In this document: positions 279 through 9,212 of the stretch, piece after piece
How positions within the stretch are numbered: the stretch's first letter is position 1
Layout: each line of letters begins with the position of its first letter
Assembly (NCBI GenBank): GCA_945905735.1
Contig: CAMDQC010000043.1
Coordinates: forward strand, 1 to 33,795
DNA: 33,795 nt
DNA from: Prosthecobacter debontii
GTDB taxonomy: Bacteria > Verrucomicrobiota > Verrucomicrobiia > Chthoniobacterales > Chthoniobacteraceae
Direction of reading: 5' to 3'
Made by a program: the position numbers and the translations under genes
Notes under the pieces: model-generated
What the model was told of the DNA's origin: nothing
What the model saw: only the letters and a program-made list of their open reading frames with translations
The model's database searches: none

Positions 279-767
279 CTATGCGTTGGCGGGGGAGCCG
301 TTGCGCTGGAAGAGGGCTTGGACGTCTTGTGGGTCCATGTCGCAGAGGTCGAGGCTCATGTGGCCTCGGGCGGAGGCGACTTTGAGCTGCTCGGCGAGCT
401 TTTTCACGGCGGGGGCGGCGTAGTATTTCATGGAGCCGACGGTCTGCTGGGTGCCGAAGATGAGGACGAGAAGGAGGTTTTCGTCGATGTTGAGGATGAG
501 CGTGCTGTAGGTCTCGCCTTGCTGATACATGCTGGCGAAGTTGTGCTCGTTGACGAGTTGGGCCATGAAGGCGGTGGCGTTGAAGGCGTTGGAGCCGAGC
601 GTCGCGAGGGTGACGGTGTCCACGGATTCCGTGGAGCCGCTCTGGTGGATGAGGTAGCCCGCTTTCTCTACGAGCATCGCGAGCATTGCTTCACTTTTTC
701 GGACGACGTCTTTGAGGACGGTGTCGAAAAAGTTCATGTCTTCTTCTAGGAGTTGAGGAAATGCCAT
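279..767 (-). CDS. MglB-like roadblock/LC7 domain protein
   Basis: The 162-aa protein has a roadblock/LC7-type fold: an N-terminal amphipathic helix (about 11-35), beta strands around GYLIHQSG (37-44), a central helix (57-77), then strands at 79-93 and 97-107 and a closing helix (112-130). Roadblock proteins of this kind bind and regulate Ras-like GTPases; MglB is the activating protein of MglA. The gene starts 10 bases after the stop of the MglA-like gene on the same strand, so the two are very likely co-transcribed and their products likely interact. The start could instead be Met11 (position 737), which has a GAAGAAG stretch just upstream and gives a more typical MglB N-terminus. The domain reading is firm; the exact GTPase-activating role is inferred. 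Confidence 0.85.
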   Translation of the reverse strand: MAFPQLLEEDMNFFDTVLKDVVRKSEAMLAMLVEKAGYLIHQSGSTESVDTVTLATLGSNAFNATAFMAQLVNEHNFASMYQQGETYSTLILNIDENLLLVLIFGTQQTVGSMKYYAAPAVKKLAEQLKVASARGHMSLDLCDMDPQDVQALFQRNGSPANA

Positions 768-777
768 GGTCGTAGAG

Positions 778-1377
778 TTACTTGTTCAGATATTTGTGGA
801 TGAGCATTTTCGTGATCATGTTGAGTGTCTCGAAAACGCCCTCTGTTTTGCTGGCGACGCCCTCGAAGTATGGGACTTGGACGTCGCGGTTATTGAGCAC
901 GTATTCCAGATACTCGATGGGCGCGGCGTCGGGGGTGTCGCGCTTGTTGTATTGGATGACGTATGGGATGTCTTCGAGGTTCAGGTTCAGGGACTTGAGG
1001 TTGTCCACCATGTGCCCGAAGGTCTCGATGTTCTCGGCCATTTTGTCGTATTGGCTGTCGGCTACGAAGACGATGCCGTCCACGCCGCGAAGGACGATTT
1101 GCCGTGTGGCGTTGTAGATCACTTGGCCTGGGACGGTGAAGAGGGAGAACTTGGTTTTGAAACCCTTGATCGTGGTAGCTTCGAGCGGGAAGAAGTCGAA
1201 GAAGAGTGTGCGGTCGCTGCTGGTGGCGAGGGAGGTCATTTTGCCCTTGGCGGACGCGTCCGGCACTTGGACGTTTGCGTGGACTTGCTCCAGATTCGTG
1301 GTTTTACCGCTCTTTGCAGGGCCGTAATAGACGATCTTGAGCTGAAGCTCCTTGGTTGCGCGATTGATGATTGCCAT
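778..1377 (-). CDS. mglA: MglA-like small Ras-family GTPase
   Basis: The 199-aa protein is a bacterial Ras-like GTPase of the MglA group. The P-loop is GPAKSGKT (residues 19-26). Switch II reads TVPGQ (81-85), with Thr where Ras has the DxxG aspartate, a hallmark of MglA. The base-specificity motif is NKRD (144-147), and ASKTEGV (175-181) fits the G5 loop. Arg56 in SDRTLFFDF corresponds to the intrinsic arginine finger known in MglA. MglA sets cell polarity and motility in Myxococcus and Thermus. In this lineage the output is unknown, and no motility genes lie in the window. It sits between two roadblock genes in one operon. Confidence 0.93.
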   Translation of the reverse strand: MAIINRATKELQLKIVYYGPAKSGKTTNLEQVHANVQVPDASAKGKMTSLATSSDRTLFFDFFPLEATTIKGFKTKFSLFTVPGQVIYNATRQIVLRGVDGIVFVADSQYDKMAENIETFGHMVDNLKSLNLNLEDIPYVIQYNKRDTPDAAPIEYLEYVLNNRDVQVPYFEGVASKTEGVFETLNMITKMLIHKYLNK

Positions 1378-1401
1378 GGTTGTGTTTGGTAAGCGGGTTG
1401 G

Positions 1402-2925
1402 TTAGCTGTTTTGGCTGGCCAGTTCGTTGCAGACGAGATGGAGCCCATTTGGGAGGTGCTCTCCGCATTTGCCGAGTGCGGCGAAGAAGACTTTGCCGTT
1501 GCGGAACATGCGGATTGCGCCGCTCTCGGTGTTGAGCGTGATGTCGTGAGTTTCCCCGAGCTGCATCTCGCCGCTGTAGCGGTCCATGCGGCTAAATACT
1601 TGGGGCATGAAGGCTGCGAAGGTCTCTGAGGAGAGGCCTTCAGGGAGTTGTTCAGCGACGACGAGGCCTTCTTCAAGGGCGACGACGACTCCGGCGATGC
1701 CTGCTAGGGAGCAGGTGAGTTTGACGAGTTCGTTTGGTGCCCAATTGGTCTTGTCCGGGAGGTTGAACAACTCGCGCAGAGTGATAGGCATCCTTCCCGA
1801 AGGAGACGAGACGATGTTGATCTGTGGTTCCGGTGTGATTGCTGGAGCCGTGAGGGGTTGAACGGGGGGAGGTGCCAATTTTGCCAGAGGAGCAGGGTGC
1901 GTGATTGGAGCGGGAGTCGGAGCGGCTGCCTTGGGCGTAGGTGTCGGCACTTGGCCCGCAGTGGGGCCGAAGAAGTCGGGGAGCGAGGTGTCTGCTTGGG
2001 CGTTCCGTCGTTTTGCGCCCGTCGCTGCAACGAATGCAGGAGCGACGATTTTCAGAGGAAGGGAGAGTTGGGTGTCATCTGGGATACCGATTGTGGAGGT
2101 GGGGCTCGGGACGAGTCGGAGCTTGAGCTGGCTCCATGGGAATACGACTTTCCCCTTTTGGAGCAAAGGGCCGATTTCTGACGCGGGAAGCACGATTCGG
2201 GTGTCGCCGGGGAGGATGGAAAGTGCGTTGCGATGCCCTTCCGGCCAAGTGGCGGCGACCTCGACGAGGAGCAATGAAAGTTCGCCGGTCAGGTTTAGCG
2301 GTGCAGGTGCTTCTGGGACTGGTGCGGGCGCAGGCGCAGGCGCGGCTGGACGGGGAGTCGGAGCGGCGGCGGGCTGACTGGGCATCCGTAGCTTTTGCTC
2401 GGGAATGGGCGCTTGCGGAGGAATCTGGGCGACTGAGGGTTGAGGGGTCGTGACGTTGCGGTTGTGGACTTCGTCGAACAGACCGACGGCGTCCGTTGGT
2501 ACTGCGTAACGGCGTTGGTCGTCGCGGCGTTTGAGGGCGGAGGGATTGATGGTTTTGAAGATTTCTGAGAGCGGAACATCGACGAGGCGTTTATCCTCAA
2601 TGTTCGTTGCTCGAAATGTCCCGCTAGGGGACTGCCGGTAGAGGCTGGCGAGGGACATCCGAACTGCGCCGCTCGGGAGTTGCTTCATGATCGCGGCGAC
2701 CGGAAGAACGACTTTTACGTCGGACGCTGGCATCTCGTTGACGGTGGACTTGAGGTCGGCAGGGAGTTTATCGAGAATCGCCCGGAGGGACAAAGACGCC
2801 ACCTCGACACCGCCGTGGGAGCCGGAGTGCCGCGAGGTGGGACTTGCCGTGATGGCAGTCGAAGGGTCTTGCGTGTTGGCGTTTCTGCCGTTTTTGGTGA
2901 ATAGCTTTTTAAGAAACTTGAGCAT
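1402..2925 (-). CDS. Large proline-rich protein with duplicated unknown domain and C-terminal roadblock domain
   Basis: The 507-aa protein is first in the GTPase operon, 24 bases upstream of the MglA-like gene. The N-terminus is basic (LKFLKKLF) with no clear signal peptide. Residues about 45-128 and 216-298 appear to be two copies of one domain: compare VKVVLPVAAIMKQLPSG with TRIVLPASEIGPLLQKG, and DVPLSEIF with LSLPLKIV. A short third echo (MPITLRELF, 379-387) follows. Pro/Ala-rich linkers (about 158-210 and 320-375) separate the parts. Residues about 395-505 form a roadblock/LC7 domain (IAGVVVALEEGLVVAEQLPEG, then a helix and strands ending FRNGKVFFAALG). It probably binds the neighbouring GTPase or roadblock protein and may act as a scaffold. 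I do not recognise the duplicated domain. Confidence 0.85.
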   Translation of the reverse strand: MLKFLKKLFTKNGRNANTQDPSTAITASPTSRHSGSHGGVEVASLSLRAILDKLPADLKSTVNEMPASDVKVVLPVAAIMKQLPSGAVRMSLASLYRQSPSGTFRATNIEDKRLVDVPLSEIFKTINPSALKRRDDQRRYAVPTDAVGLFDEVHNRNVTTPQPSVAQIPPQAPIPEQKLRMPSQPAAAPTPRPAAPAPAPAPVPEAPAPLNLTGELSLLLVEVAATWPEGHRNALSILPGDTRIVLPASEIGPLLQKGKVVFPWSQLKLRLVPSPTSTIGIPDDTQLSLPLKIVAPAFVAATGAKRRNAQADTSLPDFFGPTAGQVPTPTPKAAAPTPAPITHPAPLAKLAPPPVQPLTAPAITPEPQINIVSSPSGRMPITLRELFNLPDKTNWAPNELVKLTCSLAGIAGVVVALEEGLVVAEQLPEGLSSETFAAFMPQVFSRMDRYSGEMQLGETHDITLNTESGAIRMFRNGKVFFAALGKCGEHLPNGLHLVCNELASQNS

Positions 2926-3092
2926 GTTGGCTGGAGTTGCGGGATAGAGAAAAGCAGCGGAGATGCCAGTGCCGGACTATTCTCCGGAAATTATGGAATT
3001 CATATCAAAACCGAGAAAGGCGCGCAGTCTGCTGACCGGGCAAGGCCGCTCTTGCGCGATTCGTGCGGGAGCACTATAGATACCCGCGCAAC
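2926..3092. promoter_or_regulatory. Divergent promoter region between GTPase operon and response regulator
   Basis: These 167 bases separate two divergent operons that both encode roadblock-type proteins, so they may be co-regulated. On the plus strand a possible -10 TATAGA (3075-3080) lies 17 bases after TTGCGC (3052-3057), a poor -35. If real, transcription would start about six bases before the ATG at 3093, giving a nearly leaderless message. This would also exclude the upstream start at 3063. No convincing promoter was found on the minus strand. Confidence 0.35.
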
Positions 3093-4148
3093 ATGGTCAG
3101 CCGCCAAAGAATCCTTATACTCGATGATGAACAAGACCTCTTGGAAATTTACCAAGAGATCCTCGCGCGCTTGCCCTCGCAACCTGAAATTAGCACTTCT
3201 AGTAGCGGTGCGGAGGCGATTGCCGCTCTTGAGGCCAATCCGTATGCTTTGCTGTTGGTGGATCTGAACATGCCGACGATGGACGGCTTTCAGGTTCTCG
3301 CGATTGTCCGCCGTCGCTTTCCTGCCCTGCGGACGGTGGTAATGACGGGTTCTACGGATGAGGATCTTCGTGGGCGGGCGTACCGAGTCGGGGTGGATCT
3401 CTATATTGAAAAACCGAAGACCGGACGTGAAATCATCTTCTTTGTGGATTGCATTGAGTCGCTTCTCGAACGCGAGAGCCAAGGTGGATTCCGTGGAGTG
3501 CAGAGCAAGACATTGCTCGACATCATCCAGCTCGAATGCCTGACGCAAAGCACCAGTGTTCTGAAGGTTACCAGTGAGCTGGGCGAAGGCCGCGTATGGA
3601 TTCAAAAAGGTGAAATCGTCGATTCTACCGTCGAAGATAAATCCGGCAAAGAAGCCATCGTGGAGATGCTGGGCTGGAAAGCCGGGAACTTTGAGGTCCT
3701 GCCGTATGGCTTGCCGAGGCCGCGCACCATTTTTATCAACTACGAGTCTCTTCTGATGGAGACGGCGCAGTTCATGGACGAGGCAGCCGATGCCGCCAAC
3801 GAAGAGCGGGTGACGCCGGAGACGGTGCTCGCATCTTTTGCGCGCTTTACGGGGGTTCAATTCGCGATCGCCGTGGAAGCAGGTGACCGTGTAAAATATG
3901 AGCATTGGGGCGCGGATGATCCGGCGCCGCTGGCACTTTGGATCCACGAATCCACGGCACTTTTTAAGGCGCTCGGGGAGAAGCTTCAGTGCGGGGAGCT
4001 TCAGGATGCGGAGGCGCTTGGCGCGCAGCGGCACCTTTCTATTCTCTCTGGCGATGAAGAGGCGCTCGGCGTCGGATTTACCCGCGCTCTGGGCCTCGGC
4101 CAAATACGCGAAACACTCAAGCAAATCGAAGCAAAATGGGCATCCTGA
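3093..4148 (+). CDS. Response regulator: receiver + PATAN (DUF4388) + predicted roadblock-like domain
   Basis: From Met at 3093 the protein has 351 aa. Residues 6-125 are a CheY-like receiver: acidic pair Asp11-Asp12, phospho-acceptor Asp57 (LLVDLNMPTMDG), Thr85 in VVMTG, and Lys107 in IEKPK. Residues about 131-206 match a PATAN/DUF4388 domain (GFRGVQSKTLLDIIQLE to AGNFEVLP). Residues about 248-345 have a strand-strand-helix-strand-strand-helix order that looks like a roadblock/longin fold; this is my reading of the pattern and needs a profile search. There is no DNA-binding domain, so output is probably by protein contact, perhaps with the GTPase system encoded divergently. An in-frame Met at 3063 adds ten residues, but the receiver starts cleanly after 3093. 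The next gene overlaps by 13 bases. Confidence 0.88.
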   Translation: MVSRQRILILDDEQDLLEIYQEILARLPSQPEISTSSSGAEAIAALEANPYALLLVDLNMPTMDGFQVLAIVRRRFPALRTVVMTGSTDEDLRGRAYRVGVDLYIEKPKTGREIIFFVDCIESLLERESQGGFRGVQSKTLLDIIQLECLTQSTSVLKVTSELGEGRVWIQKGEIVDSTVEDKSGKEAIVEMLGWKAGNFEVLPYGLPRPRTIFINYESLLMETAQFMDEAADAANEERVTPETVLASFARFTGVQFAIAVEAGDRVKYEHWGADDPAPLALWIHESTALFKALGEKLQCGELQDAEALGAQRHLSILSGDEEALGVGFTRALGLGQIRETLKQIEAKWAS

Positions 4149-4858
4149 AGCCTTTCCACCGCACCCGAATCCCCGCCTCTGCCGATAGAATCCCGTCGGG
4201 ATGCTTCAGCGTACATCGCGACGGCGACATCGTCACATCCACGCTTCCGAGCTGGTTTCCCCTCAAAACAATCCGTGAAATCGCGCGGACCGTGATGAGC
4301 GCGATCCGGTCTGCGCAGGAGACGGGCCTCGCACTTTCCGAACTCCATATCAACTATGCCGGAATAGAAATCACCGGTCGCGATCTCCGTGGGGGGGCGC
4401 TCATTTTCCTGCACCCGCGCTCCACGAAATTAACACTCCAAGAGCCGCCTTCATCCATGAGCTACAAAAACGTCGAAGACTTCATCCTACACATTGAAAC
4501 GCACATTGAGTGCTGGAAACAGTTCAACCATTACGTGAATCTTGCCCGCGACAAAAAGTTCACGCCCGAGGACGAGGCGCAGTTTTTGGACCTGAAGAGC
4601 CTTATCACCCAAGGCAGCGAATCCATCGCCGCCGCAGAGGTAAAAGGCGGACCTCGTAAAGAGGAAGTGCATGCGCTGTTCGCCTCCACGCCGAGTTTGC
4701 GCTACCTCTCGGATATGAGCGACAGCATTCCCTCTGTCGAAGGGCAGTGGCACCGTATCTACCTCGCGCTTCAGTCTCTGCTCGGGCAACTCAAGGTGCA
4801 GCAGAACAAGACCGAAGAGACAAAAGGCGGCGGCTGGAGCCTATTTGGCCGCAAGTAG
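4136..4858 (+). CDS. Predicted roadblock/longin-fold protein with helical C-terminus
   Basis: The 240-aa protein is translated from an ATG inside the response-regulator gene (13-base overlap), implying coupled expression. Residues about 21-94 have the roadblock order: strand CFSVHRDGDIVTSTLP, a long helix (about 43-63), strand LHINYAGIEITGRDL, strand GGALIFLHP. Residues 107-235 are charged and helix-rich, with no recognised domain and no membrane segment. The family cannot be named from sequence alone. The neighbouring regulator and divergent MglA/roadblock operon suggest it belongs to the same signalling system. Confidence is high that it is a gene and moderate for the fold. Confidence 0.8.
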   Translation: MGILKPFHRTRIPASADRIPSGCFSVHRDGDIVTSTLPSWFPLKTIREIARTVMSAIRSAQETGLALSELHINYAGIEITGRDLRGGALIFLHPRSTKLTLQEPPSSMSYKNVEDFILHIETHIECWKQFNHYVNLARDKKFTPEDEAQFLDLKSLITQGSESIAAAEVKGGPRKEEVHALFASTPSLRYLSDMSDSIPSVEGQWHRIYLALQSLLGQLKVQQNKTEETKGGGWSLFGRK

Positions 4859-4924: not shown

Positions 4925-6490
4925 ATGATGGCGCTTGTTTTTGGCACTCTAACTCAAGAATCGCAGATGATCTCTGCGCTCGTGGCGGCACCGGTGATCT
5001 ACTTTGTCGGCCTCGCTCTCGGGCGTTGGTTAAAGCGGCGGTATGGAGTTCCTTTTGGTATCGCGTTCCATTGGTTCGTCCTCCTGCTCACTGTTTTTAC
5101 GCCGCTGAAGGTATGGCATTTGATCAATTCCGATCGAACGAACGCAGCGGACGGGAAACCCGTGCCTGAAGAGGCGTGGCACCTTTCCTGTATGCGGTGG
5201 TTCGGCTCGCTAGTTATCATCCTAGCGATACTGGCTGCGCTTGCGTTGATCCGGCGGTTTTTCTGGGAGCATTATTTTCAAAAACGCTACGGCACCCACG
5301 CTCCGAAGCTTCTTCAGCAAGTGTTCGGATTCGGGATATTTTGTACCGCGGTGTTGCTCTTGCTGAGTGGGCGGCACGGCGTGATGATCGATGCATTCCT
5401 AGCAGGCTCCGGCATCGTTGCTGTCGTGGTCGGCTTTGCCATGCAGGAGACGCTGGCGAATATCGTCAGCGGCATCGCCCTGCAAATCGGCAAGCCCTTC
5501 CAGTCCGGCGACTGGCTCATCGTCACCGACATCCGAGCCGAAGTCATCGAAGTCAACTGGCGCTCCACCCGCCTGCGCACGAACGACGACGTGTATCTCG
5601 ACATCCCCAACAAAACCATCGTCACCAGCACGATTACTAACCTCAGCTACCCCACGAAATCGCACTCCAACCGGATGCGCGTCGGCTTTGAATACGGCAC
5701 CCCGCCCAACATCGTGCGCGAGATACTCCGCCGTTCGGCAGAAGATGTGGCGCTCGTCCTTACAAGTCCGCCCGTGAAAGTATTCCTCAAGGATTTCGCC
5801 GACTCATCCATCGTCTATGAGATCAAATACAGCATCGAAGACGAAGCTCGCTTTAACGACATCGAAGACGCCATTCGCACGAATATCTGGTACGAAGCCA
5901 GCCGTGCTGGGCTCACGATACCGTTCCCTCAGCGCGTCCTCCACATCACACGGGACAGGCCAAACCCCACGCGCAATATAGACGAACTCCGCGAGCGCGC
6001 CCGAAAGCTCGAACTCCTCTCGCCACTCAGCGAAGCCCAGCGCGAACACCTCCTTCAAAACGCCAACGTCCTCCGCTTCGGGCGCGGCGAGCGCATCATC
6101 AAACAAGGCAACGACGGGTGCTCCATGTTCGTCATCCTCCACGGCGAACTCGACGTCTTCATCACAAAAGAGGGCCGCGATACCCAAGTAGCCACCCTGC
6201 ACGACGGCGACGCCTTCGGCGAAATGTGTATGCTCACCGGCGAGGCGCGCTCCGCCACCGTCCGGGCGAAAAGGGACAGCCTCGTATGGGAAATCCGCCG
6301 TGACGAAATGCAGCCGCTCCTCCAAGAAAATGCCGAGATGGCCGCGCGGATGAGCGAACTCCTCGCCCGCCGCAAGATGCACACCGAAGGCATCCTCGCC
6401 GCCCAAGCCCCCACGCAAGTCGTGCAGGATAAAACGAAGGAATACGCCAACGGCGTGCTCGGCAAAATTCGCGCTCTGTTTAAGATATAG
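4925..6490 (+). CDS. MscS-family mechanosensitive channel fused to a cyclic-nucleotide-binding domain
   Basis: The 521-aa inner-membrane protein has predicted membrane helices at about 17-34, 48-66, 92-113 and 130-148, then the MscS pore helix and beta domain (about 155-340: GIVAVVVGFAMQETLANIVSG, then IPNKTIVTSTITN). Residues about 363-475 are a CRP/cNMP-binding domain with the phosphate-binding cassette FGEMCMLTGEARSATV, including Glu433 and Arg442. MscS channels release solutes on hypo-osmotic shock. Fusions to cNMP-binding domains form a known subgroup (bCNG-like channels), which usually gate weakly to tension and may be tuned by cyclic nucleotides. The globin gene follows by five bases. 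Gene start: ATG 4925, with a second ATG immediately after. Confidence 0.93.
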   Translation: MMALVFGTLTQESQMISALVAAPVIYFVGLALGRWLKRRYGVPFGIAFHWFVLLLTVFTPLKVWHLINSDRTNAADGKPVPEEAWHLSCMRWFGSLVIILAILAALALIRRFFWEHYFQKRYGTHAPKLLQQVFGFGIFCTAVLLLLSGRHGVMIDAFLAGSGIVAVVVGFAMQETLANIVSGIALQIGKPFQSGDWLIVTDIRAEVIEVNWRSTRLRTNDDVYLDIPNKTIVTSTITNLSYPTKSHSNRMRVGFEYGTPPNIVREILRRSAEDVALVLTSPPVKVFLKDFADSSIVYEIKYSIEDEARFNDIEDAIRTNIWYEASRAGLTIPFPQRVLHITRDRPNPTRNIDELRERARKLELLSPLSEAQREHLLQNANVLRFGRGERIIKQGNDGCSMFVILHGELDVFITKEGRDTQVATLHDGDAFGEMCMLTGEARSATVRAKRDSLVWEIRRDEMQPLLQENAEMAARMSELLARRKMHTEGILAAQAPTQVVQDKTKEYANGVLGKIRALFKI

Positions 6491-6495
6491 CCCCC

Positions 6496-6909
6496 ATGAA
6501 CTTCGACTACATCGTGCCGCCAAACCCGCCCGTGGAGGCGGCTCCTTTCGCCCCGCTCTACGAGCGAATCGGCGGCGAGGAGGGCATCGCGCGGCTGGTG
6601 AAGTGGTTTTACGCTCGCGTGCGCTATGAGCCCACAGTGGAGGCGATTTTCCGCGAGCACGTCCAAGATTGGCCCGCGCATTTGCAGACGATCATCGCTT
6701 TCTGGGCCCAGATGACCGGTGGCCCGCAAAATTACGCCGGCGGGATGGGGCGGCACATTTTTCTCCGCCTGCGCCCCGAGCACTACGCCGTGTGGCTCTC
6801 CGTGTGGGAGAAAAACTGCCGCGAAGTCCTGCCCGAACGTGAGGCCGATGAGATGGTCGCTCTGGCGCATCACTTCGGCACAAAGCTCCAGCAGATGGCG
6901 GCGGGATGA
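6496..6909 (+). CDS. Truncated haemoglobin (probably group III)
   Basis: The 137-aa protein has the 2-over-2 globin pattern: LYERIGGEEGIARLV (B/C helices), a central segment with FWAQMTGGPQNYAG, and MGRHIFLRLRPEHYAVW carrying His96 as the likely proximal haem ligand (F8). Trp100 and Trp104 follow in the F/G region. The PEHYAVWLSVWE stretch resembles group III truncated haemoglobins more than group II, though the group call is tentative. Such globins bind O2 or NO, or handle reactive nitrogen. The gene begins five bases after the MscS-cNMP gene and is likely in its operon. Its stop codon lies one base from that of the convergent hydrolase gene. Confidence 0.9.
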   Translation: MNFDYIVPPNPPVEAAPFAPLYERIGGEEGIARLVKWFYARVRYEPTVEAIFREHVQDWPAHLQTIIAFWAQMTGGPQNYAGGMGRHIFLRLRPEHYAVWLSVWEKNCREVLPEREADEMVALAHHFGTKLQQMAAG

Positions 6910-7839: not shown

Positions 7840-8820
7840 TTATCCGCCGGGGAAGGGATTGGCGGCAAAGCGTCGCTCGACTTCTGCCCGTGGCACGTCA
7901 TTGGCGACCGGGCGGCAGACGGAGCAAACGAAGAGCAGGAGCGCAGCGGCGAGCCAGATGGTTGCATCGACCGCCCCGAGCACGCGGCTTTTTCGCCGGG
8001 CGGGTGCGAGGATACGGCGGACGCGCTGTTCGAGCTTGCCGGGCTGGCGCTGCGCCATGGCGAGGTAGGCGGCGGCAGCGGCGGGGCGGCGCGTGGAGGC
8101 TTGGGCCATTTGCCAAAGGACGGTGGCGTAGGCGGTCGGCGTCACGCCGTGTTCGACGACGAGTTCATCCACCGCATACTCGCGCTCGACGCAGAGTTGG
8201 TTCTGCAAAATCCACGCAAACGGATTGAACCAATGCACGGCGCAAGCGATGCGCCCGAGCGCGTGAATCCACAAATCGCCACGCCGAAAATGCCCCAGCT
8301 CATGCAGCAGCACGAGCCGCCGCTGCTCTCGCGTCCAGTGCAGTGCTTCATCGGGAAGGAGCACGGTGCGGCGGAAAAGGCCCGTCGCGCTGGGGATGAA
8401 GCCGGGGCCTGCGAGGCGAAGGTGCGTCTTCCCCGAGATGCCGAGCGTCGCTTGCGCAGCGGCGAGGCAGTCGGCCCATTCCGCGCCGAGGACAGCGCAA
8501 GTTTCGCGCATGAGCGAGCGAATCGCGAATGCTCCATTTGCCAGCCGTGCGAGGCAGAAGAGCGCGCCCACGAGCCAGATCATGCCGAGCCAATTCGCAG
8601 CCATCACTGGCGCAGCAGCCAGCCCCGCGAACGCGGCGGGCGCGTGGATTTTCACCGGCGCAAAGATCGCGAGCGGCGATACGAGCAGCGCAAAAAATGC
8701 CGCCGCCGGGACAGCGCGGCGGATGCGCCCGCGCCAAGCGGAAGGGCACGCGAAGACGCACGCAGCGGCGATTCCACCCACTGCGAGCGAGCGCAGCAAC
8801 CAGTCGAATGTGAAGTTCAT
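7840..8820 (-). CDS. M56 (BlaR1-like) membrane metallopeptidase
   Basis: The 326-aa protein has membrane helices at about 8-24, 38-54, 75-95 and 285-302. The zinc-protease motif HELGH is at 173-177, with a probable third ligand Glu214 in EREYAVDE. In BlaR1/MecR1 this domain cuts the BlaI/MecI repressor after the sensor domain is acylated. Here the protein ends about 24 residues after the last membrane helix, so there is no extracellular penicillin-binding sensor. The inducing signal is therefore unknown. The start ATG overlaps the BlaI-type gene by four bases, a typical translationally coupled blaI-M56 pair. Confidence 0.92.
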   Translation of the reverse strand: MNFTFDWLLRSLAVGGIAAACVFACPSAWRGRIRRAVPAAAFFALLVSPLAIFAPVKIHAPAAFAGLAAAPVMAANWLGMIWLVGALFCLARLANGAFAIRSLMRETCAVLGAEWADCLAAAQATLGISGKTHLRLAGPGFIPSATGLFRRTVLLPDEALHWTREQRRLVLLHELGHFRRGDLWIHALGRIACAVHWFNPFAWILQNQLCVEREYAVDELVVEHGVTPTAYATVLWQMAQASTRRPAAAAAYLAMAQRQPGKLEQRVRRILAPARRKSRVLGAVDATIWLAAALLLFVCSVCRPVANDVPRAEVERRFAANPFPGG

Positions 8821-9212
8821 GAGCGGTTCCTTTCGTCTATCATCGCCTTGATGCGCGCCAGCTCAATGTCGTCCACGTCCTTCGGGTCAATGAGCGTGGC
8901 CACCAGCTCGGCTGGGCTATTATTGAAGAACGTCGAAAGGATGCGCCGGAGCGCGCTCTTGCTCGCCTTCTCCGGCGATGCGGTGGGCAGATACACGTAG
9001 CGCTTGCCTTCGCGTTCGTGGCGCAGATGGCCCTTCGTCACGAGCACCGAGAGCAGCGCGCGGACGGCGGAATAGCTCGGCGCATCGGAGAGTTGATCGT
9101 GGACTTCATTCGCCGACGCGCGACTTGCGCGCCAGATGATGTCCATGATCTGGCGTTCGCGACGAGAAAGTGAGTCAGATTGTTCAGCAGGCACGTCGGG
9201 TAGTTTGCTCAA
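8817..9212 (-). CDS. BlaI/MecI-family transcriptional repressor
   Basis: The 131-aa protein is a winged-helix repressor of the BlaI/MecI family: SRRERQIMDIIWR (16-28), recognition helix about 46-60 (SYSAVRALLSVLVTKG) and wing LRHEREGKRYVYLP (63-76). The C-terminal half is the helical dimerisation part. The start appears to be TTG at 9212; the next in-frame ATG lies inside the DNA-binding domain. It is co-transcribed with the M56 peptidase, which probably inactivates it. Target operators are likely in the divergent region 9213-9297. No beta-lactamase gene is adjacent. Confidence 0.92.
   Translation of the reverse strand: MSKLPDVPAEQSDSLSRRERQIMDIIWRASRASANEVHDQLSDAPSYSAVRALLSVLVTKGHLRHEREGKRYVYLPTASPEKASKSALRRILSTFFNNSPAELVATLIDPKDVDDIELARIKAMIDERNRS

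Follow-up and report, generated by a model that had tools for sequence, protein, structure and literature searches.

One of the closest described counterparts of the system reported here is the MglA network of Myxococcus xanthus, in which MglB and MglC are both roadblock proteins, MglC stands between MglB and the receiver protein RomR, and the RomR/MglC/MglB complex acts on localisation with GTPase-activating protein (GAP) activity unchanged (PMC10329633). RomX and RomY also belong to that network (PMC10329633, PMC9481161). In groups 1 and 5, MglA occasionally has a PATAN gene nearby (PMC4316618 section 18, Wuichet and Sogaard-Andersen 2014), and fusions of Response_reg with Robl_LC7 were reported in the same 2014 paper. 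PATAN neighbours, receiver-roadblock fusions and the RomR-MglC-MglB assembly are thus already known. We describe a divergent cluster of five genes at positions 279-4858 of a 33,795-nucleotide stretch of DNA (hereafter the window: contig CAMDQC010000043.1 of assembly GCA_945905735.1, Prosthecobacter debontii). The cluster is real, conserved and maintained in Verrucomicrobiota, and it probably forms one functional regulatory module for an MglA-type GTPase. An earlier note on this DNA, made from its letters alone, took Myxococcus MglA to work normally with one MglB and separate regulators; the MglB/MglC pair is at odds with this. Nor is the joining of a receiver to a roadblock domain new, given the fusions and PATAN neighbours reported in 2014.

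All five genes are complete, at the positions that note gave, and Pfam and PDB matches agree with its naming of an MglB-like protein, an MglA-like GTPase, a 507-amino-acid (aa) roadblock protein and a receiver-PATAN gene. Three genes lie on the minus strand. The MglB-like protein (279-767, 162 aa) matches Robl_LC7 over residues 15-104 (positions 456-725) with 31.2 bits against a cut-off of 23, and its best PDB match is Myxococcus MglB (6izw, 4e-12). It scores 52.8 bits against the NCBIfam equivalog for Thermus MglB, below the cut-off of 200, which leaves it outside that equivalog. The published description of MglB, a protein of 129-179 aa with a single Robl_LC7 domain, encoded near mglA (PMC4316618), fits the window's protein in length, domain and adjacency, and we regard it as the putative GAP of MglA. 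Ten bp separate its gene from that of the GTPase (778-1377, 199 aa; P0002), which matches solved MglA over its length (PDB 3t12, 5.5e-60). Arg56, which precedes the G2 threonine Thr57, and Gln85, within TVPGQ, are invariant in all 25 aligned rows (25 of the 48 rows at hand). Published marks of group 1 are an arginine beside the G2 threonine and TVPGQ in G3, as opposed to threonine and GTPGQ in groups 2-5, so the window's GTPase is a group-1-type MglA, by its residues rather than by tree placement. Section 13 of PMC4316618 places Verrucomicrobia under group 5 only. The window's genome encodes a second, distant MglA-like GTPase (G000:C236:2764-3318, locus L002; 36% identity, in a 374-aa frame). 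A profile search of this 5.19-Mb, 93.5% complete genome returned two Robl_LC7 matches at an E-value of 0.01 or less, MglB and the 507-aa protein; no Robl_LC7 match outside the cluster was found to accompany the second GTPase.

The third minus-strand gene (1402-2925) encodes the 507-aa protein, which has two N-terminal repeats, proline-rich linkers and a C-terminal roadblock domain (Robl_LC7 at residues 399-480, positions 1486-1731, 29.5 bits). The repeat bears no family name; its two copies in the window span residues 45-138 and 218-297, and at least two copies are found in 55 of 57 sequences searched. The repeat region (2512-2793, 2035-2274), a possible unlisted domain, is also matched in a 2494-aa frame of genome G078 and a 159-aa frame of genome G032, both members of the window's family without an MglA match at E 1e-20. 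One locus, L119, shows MglA and the 507-aa homolog in a single 696-aa frame; we rejected this as a natural fusion, the frame crossing an X residue that marks an assembly gap.

Eight orthologs of the 240-aa protein encoded at 4136-4858 were used to scan 84,980 species genomes, and 64 loci resulted. Fifteen (L079-L093) are of the window's type, mostly titled Chthoniobacter, Chthoniobacteraceae or Spartobacteria, and include two metagenome-assembled genomes that bear the title Prosthecobacter debontii and two whose titles stop at the phylum. The titles of the other 49 name Limisphaerales, Pedosphaera or Verrucomicrobia subdivision 3 in 29 cases; the remaining 20 carry the titles Verrucomicrobia, Verrucomicrobiales, 'bacterium' or others, with one Methylacidimicrobium. 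The module is also present in Chthoniobacter flavus Ellin428 (L090), a cultured strain. In 57 of the 64 loci the homolog of the 507-aa protein adjoins the REC-PATAN (receiver-PATAN) gene in divergent orientation, across a gap that, in the 56 loci measured (L085 is outside alignment A2), has a median of 210 bp and reaches at most 588 bp; the corresponding 167 bp of the window (2926-3092) is presumed to be a shared promoter region. All five genes are present in 47 of the 64, and in 10 more of the 57 the contig ends before MglA or MglB. Four of the seven loci without the divergent pair (L094, L095, L103 and L132) are cut by contig ends. The conservation of the divergent pair across Verrucomicrobiota, which the earlier note had put forward for checking, therefore extends far beyond the window's genus, and linkage of the plus- and minus-strand operons recurs in other genomes. 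Frames containing X were omitted from the lists of GTPases and 507-aa homologs.

Within the window's order we drew an even sample of 117 genomes, 20 of them from the window's own family. In that family the pair of plus-strand genes is present in all eight genomes with a close MglA (80-100% identity) and in none of the twelve without one; at E 1e-20 MglA is unmatched in eleven of the twelve, and the twelfth has a distant match (34%).

On the plus strand, gene 4136 (4136-4858) begins 13 bases before the end of the preceding gene and encodes a 240-aa protein in which nothing exceeds a Pfam cut-off; Robl_LC7 is absent for P0005 and from the 25 families listed, out of 27, for 112 ortholog rows. An AlphaFold2 model from the 112-row alignment (mean pLDDT 81, pTM 0.50) predicts strand-strand-helix-strand-strand-strand for residues 22-94 (4199-4417), the roadblock core without its first and last helices, with block means of 85-92 for residues 21-90, and helices for residues 113-231 (4472-4828). 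Foldseek against PDB gives 7yh1 as the best match (E 1.1e-4) and seven matches at E 0.001 or less. Among the 50 matches listed, 38 carry a title that names roadblock, MglB/MglC, MP1-p14 or Ragulator/LAMTOR; the other 12 comprise eight axonemal doublet or dynein entries, one 'heteropentameric complex' and three others. By predicted structure, then, we consider residues 22-94 established as a roadblock domain, in keeping with the call made for residues 21-94 in the earlier note.

Only the window-type loci, 15 in all, encode the two parts of this protein in a single gene. Separate frames, for a roadblock protein of about 105 aa and a helical protein of about 130 aa, are present in 47 of the other 49; L103 and L142, at contig ends, show one half only, and the partial roadblock frame of L132 was omitted from alignment A3. 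There is an overlap of 4 bases between the split frames in 19 of these 47 loci, and in five the two share a reading frame with an intervening stop. In an alignment to the window's protein, all 29 rows that start at or after the column of Met108 begin with methionine, so that the former start codon can still be seen in the fusion. Gene 4136 is, on this comparison of sequences, a gene fusion. Residues 125-129 of the helical domain (ECWKQ) are each conserved in 64 of 64. One locus, L109, carries two tandem REC-PATAN copies, each followed by a roadblock gene, with one helical gene. A mobile origin of the 240-aa protein was considered and rejected: neither viral contigs, where 34 stretches matched the pattern and none was confirmed, nor 72,556 plasmid records contained a relative.

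Upstream of gene 4136, gene 3093 (3093-4148, plus strand) encodes a 351-aa response regulator. Its reading frame extends upstream to a GTG at 3063, but Met1 of the ATG at 3093 is conserved in at least 90% of aligned rows. Two Pfam domains score over cut-off, Response_reg (positions 3111-3434; 73.4 bits, 2e-20) and DUF4388, or PATAN (residues 140-231, 3510-3785; 52.5 bits, 6.2e-14), which makes it a PATAN receiver, with both domains on one chain. The catalytic residues of the receiver are intact to judge from the alignment: D11, D57, K107 and a threonine or serine at 85 are each found in 62 of 62 rows, and D12 in 61. Sixty-one ortholog rows of 348-361 aa were kept, all with the C-terminal region; alignment A2 omits L085, whose REC-PATAN gene is in two pieces, L095, which lies on a cut contig and exceeds the E-value limit, and L103 and L132, whose contigs carry no REC-PATAN gene. 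For residues 247-350 (3831-4142), AlphaFold2 with the 62-row alignment predicts helix-strand-strand-helix-strand-strand-strand-helix, with pLDDT block means of 85-92 over residues 251-350 in a model of mean pLDDT 81 and pTM 0.43. Helix, two strands, helix, three strands and helix is the roadblock order, and the predicted order equals it. We therefore regard residues 247-350 as a probable roadblock fold, so that of the up to four roadblock-type domains counted in the earlier note, three are established (two by Pfam, that of gene 4136 by structure) and this fourth is probable.

The architecture, the co-occurrence of the genes and the parallels with known systems together suggest a mechanism. MP1 pairs with p14, and the C-terminal roadblock of the REC-PATAN protein might pair in like manner with the roadblock of the 240-aa protein; we hold this heterodimer to be a tentative proposal, falling somewhat short of an even chance. 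Phosphorylation of the receiver would open or close the resulting platform, which would bind the MglB dimer or MglA and set where MglB and MglA accumulate, as RomR-MglC-MglB does. An effect on GTP hydrolysis itself is conceivable, without a parallel in Myxococcus; as MglC leaves GAP activity unchanged, the Myxococcus parallel speaks for a localisation role only. The 507-aa protein would probably be a scaffold or co-regulator of MglB. PATAN would relay the outcome to the type IV pilus motor, in the manner of the PATAN receivers of Synechocystis. As a general account, a phosphorylation-gated roadblock platform on a group-1-type MglA/MglB switch would be the best explanation, which we judge to be evenly balanced between right and wrong, and the full chain as written is rather unlikely. 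The same holds for the most novel version, a bacterial counterpart of Ragulator in which a single Ras-like GTPase is surrounded by four different roadblock domains. The one at the end of the REC-PATAN protein and the one at the start of the next protein would form a heterodimer set by receiver phosphorylation in the same chain, through which a two-component signal would directly control MglA, in its nucleotide state or its position, and, via PATAN, the pilus motor; we would not expect it to prove correct. The earlier note had suggested that phospho-relay input and GTPase switch may be physically joined. That part stands in so far as an intact receiver shares a chain with a domain of predicted roadblock topology; any such join is not to the GTPase itself.

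A pilus output is plausible. Directly behind MglB, on the same strand, a homolog of the PilT/PilU family is found in 14 of the 45 loci with more than 300 bp there; the copy in L113 (L113:2633-3910), the only one checked against TIGR01420, scores 351 bits against a cut-off of 319, and the other 13, some of them fragments, were found by similarity to it. The window's contig begins where such a gene would stand, and its genome has six PilT-family matches over cut-off elsewhere. The PATAN domain of Synechocystis receivers interacts with the pilus motor PilB (PMC10519157), an interaction stated as a hypothesis in PMC7690835; two PATAN proteins are listed in PMC11580455 among candidate pilus regulators that were not studied there. 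Overall, we give the pilus as output an even chance.

Several results weigh against the mechanism proposed, and three other readings were considered. No kinase was found among six window proteins scanned with Pfam, nor among the five cluster genes. A PilT-type gene is absent behind MglB in the other 31 of the 45 loci, including all 11 window-type loci, and together with the lack of a GAP effect of MglC this lowers the probability of both the full chain and the pilus output. The fourth roadblock could be some other small alpha/beta domain, which would leave only three. No sequence profile of this domain gives a significant match to the roadblock family: weak Robl_LC7 matches occur in six of 62 members, at E 0.0038 for the best of them, and the window's member has none; the best PDB match of the 62-row profile reaches only E 0.15 (profile 4-84 on chain 11-92); and a 40-row profile of split-gene loci (alignment A5, without window-type rows and L094, L096, L099, L105, L110, L114 and L140) has no roadblock among the 15 matches listed, the best being eIF4A at E 0.55. 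Foldseek, run on the whole REC-PATAN model, did not isolate the domain; the 50 PDB matches listed are receivers and receiver-containing proteins. Yet the predicted order of elements is that of a roadblock, at high confidence; Robl_LC7 is the commonest Pfam match among the members (one of 10 examined singly matched it, at E 0.012); and the chain matched at E 0.15 is itself a Robl_LC7 chain. Foldseek against a viral library lists, after receivers, three synaptobrevin/V-SNARE entries and one profilin (E 0.017-0.066), interspersed with unrelated entries of equal rank (eIF4E, dUTPase) and with an unknown aligned range. Weak Pfam scores are moreover compatible with a roadblock fold, since the domain of gene 4136, clear by structure, also lacks a Robl_LC7 match. 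Comparison of the domain families by hhalign (without the long MglB frame of L122) and a cross hmmsearch among the open reading frames of the 64 loci found no links, and count neither way, the positive control (MglB against the C-terminus of the 507-aa protein) having failed in both. We consider it fairly improbable that the domain is something other than a roadblock; the roadblock call for residues 248-345 in the earlier note thus gains from predicted topology and confidence, and from sequence weak and mixed support.

The two strands might instead carry functionally separate operons, an ordinary MglA/MglB module and a PATAN regulator acting directly on pili, linked only through a shared promoter or a common target. 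In favour of this, many genomes of the order have the minus-strand trio but no plus-strand genes beside it (19 of 22 loci). In another family of the order (f8), PATAN-helical pairs lie on a different contig from MglA in 9 of 9 genomes. Upstream DNA is present but the 507-aa homolog is not there in L079 (6.6 kb), L108 (3.9 kb) and L128 (1.6 kb), in all of which the plus-strand genes lie apart from MglA genes. L079 belongs to genome G015, a near-copy of the window (96% identity to the window protein) with the cluster halves about 40 kb apart on one contig; by blastn the break falls at window positions 3039-3053 (L161, L162), a stretch of 15 bases shared by the two window matches, and the rearrangement fits one inversion, or misassembly. 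Against two independent operons stand the linkage in 57 of 64 loci, the joint presence or absence with a close MglA in the window's family, and the fact that linked PATAN proteins have the C-terminal domain and a roadblock neighbour, which the unlinked f8 proteins do not. On these grounds separate operons seem to us an improbable account. The REC-PATAN and 240-aa proteins might alternatively act as a guanine nucleotide exchange factor (GEF) for MglA, a counterpart of RomR/RomX, rather than as a scaffold on the MglB side. A receiver protein with a second small protein does parallel RomR/RomX, and heteromeric roadblock or longin complexes with GEF activity, including Ragulator, are named in the discussion of PMC9481161; the available text of that paper describes no roadblock domain in RomX. 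We hold this account, too, to be improbable.

In all nine f8 loci examined (L012 1549-1980 and eight further), the PATAN protein stops 4-8 residues beyond its PATAN domain, and a helical gene follows directly (profile match E about 1e-14 to 1e-18). No receiver was matched in this PATAN protein, and within about 1.5 kb on either side no match at E 0.01 was found to the C-terminal domain or the roadblock protein. The PATAN-helical pair is perhaps the older core of the plus-strand operon. Since the f8 loci lack both roadblock-type parts of that operon, the two appear to come or go together, and joint gain and joint loss are indistinguishable from these data. Homologs of both MglB and the 507-aa C-terminus stand near MglA in the 19 loci mentioned above, out of 22 that come from other families of the order. 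Two units, MglB-MglA-507 and PATAN-helical, are joined in module loci.

A tree of 74 MglA rows (72 of this study and two named MglAs; L002 and identical rows omitted) separates 15 window-type and 35 split-gene rows from 22 rows of other families of the window's own order and the two named MglAs, with branch support 97/91. MglA of the window's family is 71-76% identical to that of split-gene loci, compared with 58-62% to the 22 other-family rows; the closest MglA match of every other-family genome in the order lies at 53-62%. Transfer of the module from one lineage to another would be compatible with this grouping, and so would differential paralog loss.

Beyond the cluster, a gene for an MscS-type channel with a C-terminal cyclic-nucleotide-binding domain (4925-6490, plus strand) follows directly. 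We rejected it as a member, for it is matched in one of the 64 loci, the near-copy L079 only. A 137-aa frame at 6496-6909 (plus strand) resembles a truncated haemoglobin, and two adjoining frames within 7840-9212 (minus strand) resemble a BlaR1-type membrane peptidase and a BlaI/MecI-type repressor. An undecaprenyl-diphosphatase gene follows the helical gene in both loci tested (L113:8766-9626, L127:8456-9247) and is outside the count of the system.

The system is compact, so that five or six proteins could suffice to reconstitute a control step from phosphorylation to a GTPase. Roadblock proteins unseen by Pfam are a further addition, one of them built into a larger protein by gene fusion. 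Ragulator/LAMTOR (MP1-p14 and relatives) exemplifies several different roadblock proteins serving one small-GTPase system, and its chains are among the structural matches of gene 4136; Ragulator is a eukaryotic platform for Rag, and heterodimerisation here is something we infer. Like the MglA/MglB/MglC/RomR/RomX/RomY network of Myxococcus xanthus, the locus has a group-1-type MglA, a roadblock GAP, more than one roadblock protein and a receiver-domain protein, and type IV pili are one output there. In Myxococcus, however, the RomR receiver and the MglC roadblock are separate, whereas here receiver, PATAN and probable roadblock form one polypeptide, the REC-PATAN gene overlaps another roadblock gene, and all genes form one divergent cluster (no search was made for RomR, RomX or RomY). 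Receiver and PATAN also share one protein in the PATAN-CheY receivers of Synechocystis (PixG, PixE, LsiR), where PATAN has a pilus-motor target. PATAN is N-terminal there (PMC10519157), in contrast to the order receiver-PATAN-C-terminal domain here, and the available text of PMC10519157 and PMC7690835 describes neither MglA nor a roadblock protein as a partner. Streptomyces conservons (cvnA-D) likewise combine a small GTPase, an MglB homolog and a two-component protein in a conserved cluster; they encode a histidine kinase, and their GTPase is of group 2 and lacks the intrinsic arginine, whereas this locus, with no kinase among its genes, has a receiver and a GTPase with the group 1 arginine. 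For Verrucomicrobia MglA with type IV pili, PMC4316618 was the only paper found, and we found no earlier description of the module in the literature searched, which did not extend to the supplementary gene-neighbourhood tables of that paper. The systems in its available text lack a conserved divergent module of five to six genes, a REC-PATAN-roadblock protein and a helical partner. Beside all of these, the new elements are a protein built as REC-PATAN-(roadblock), the pairing of a roadblock gene with a helical gene, and a divergent module that is conserved.

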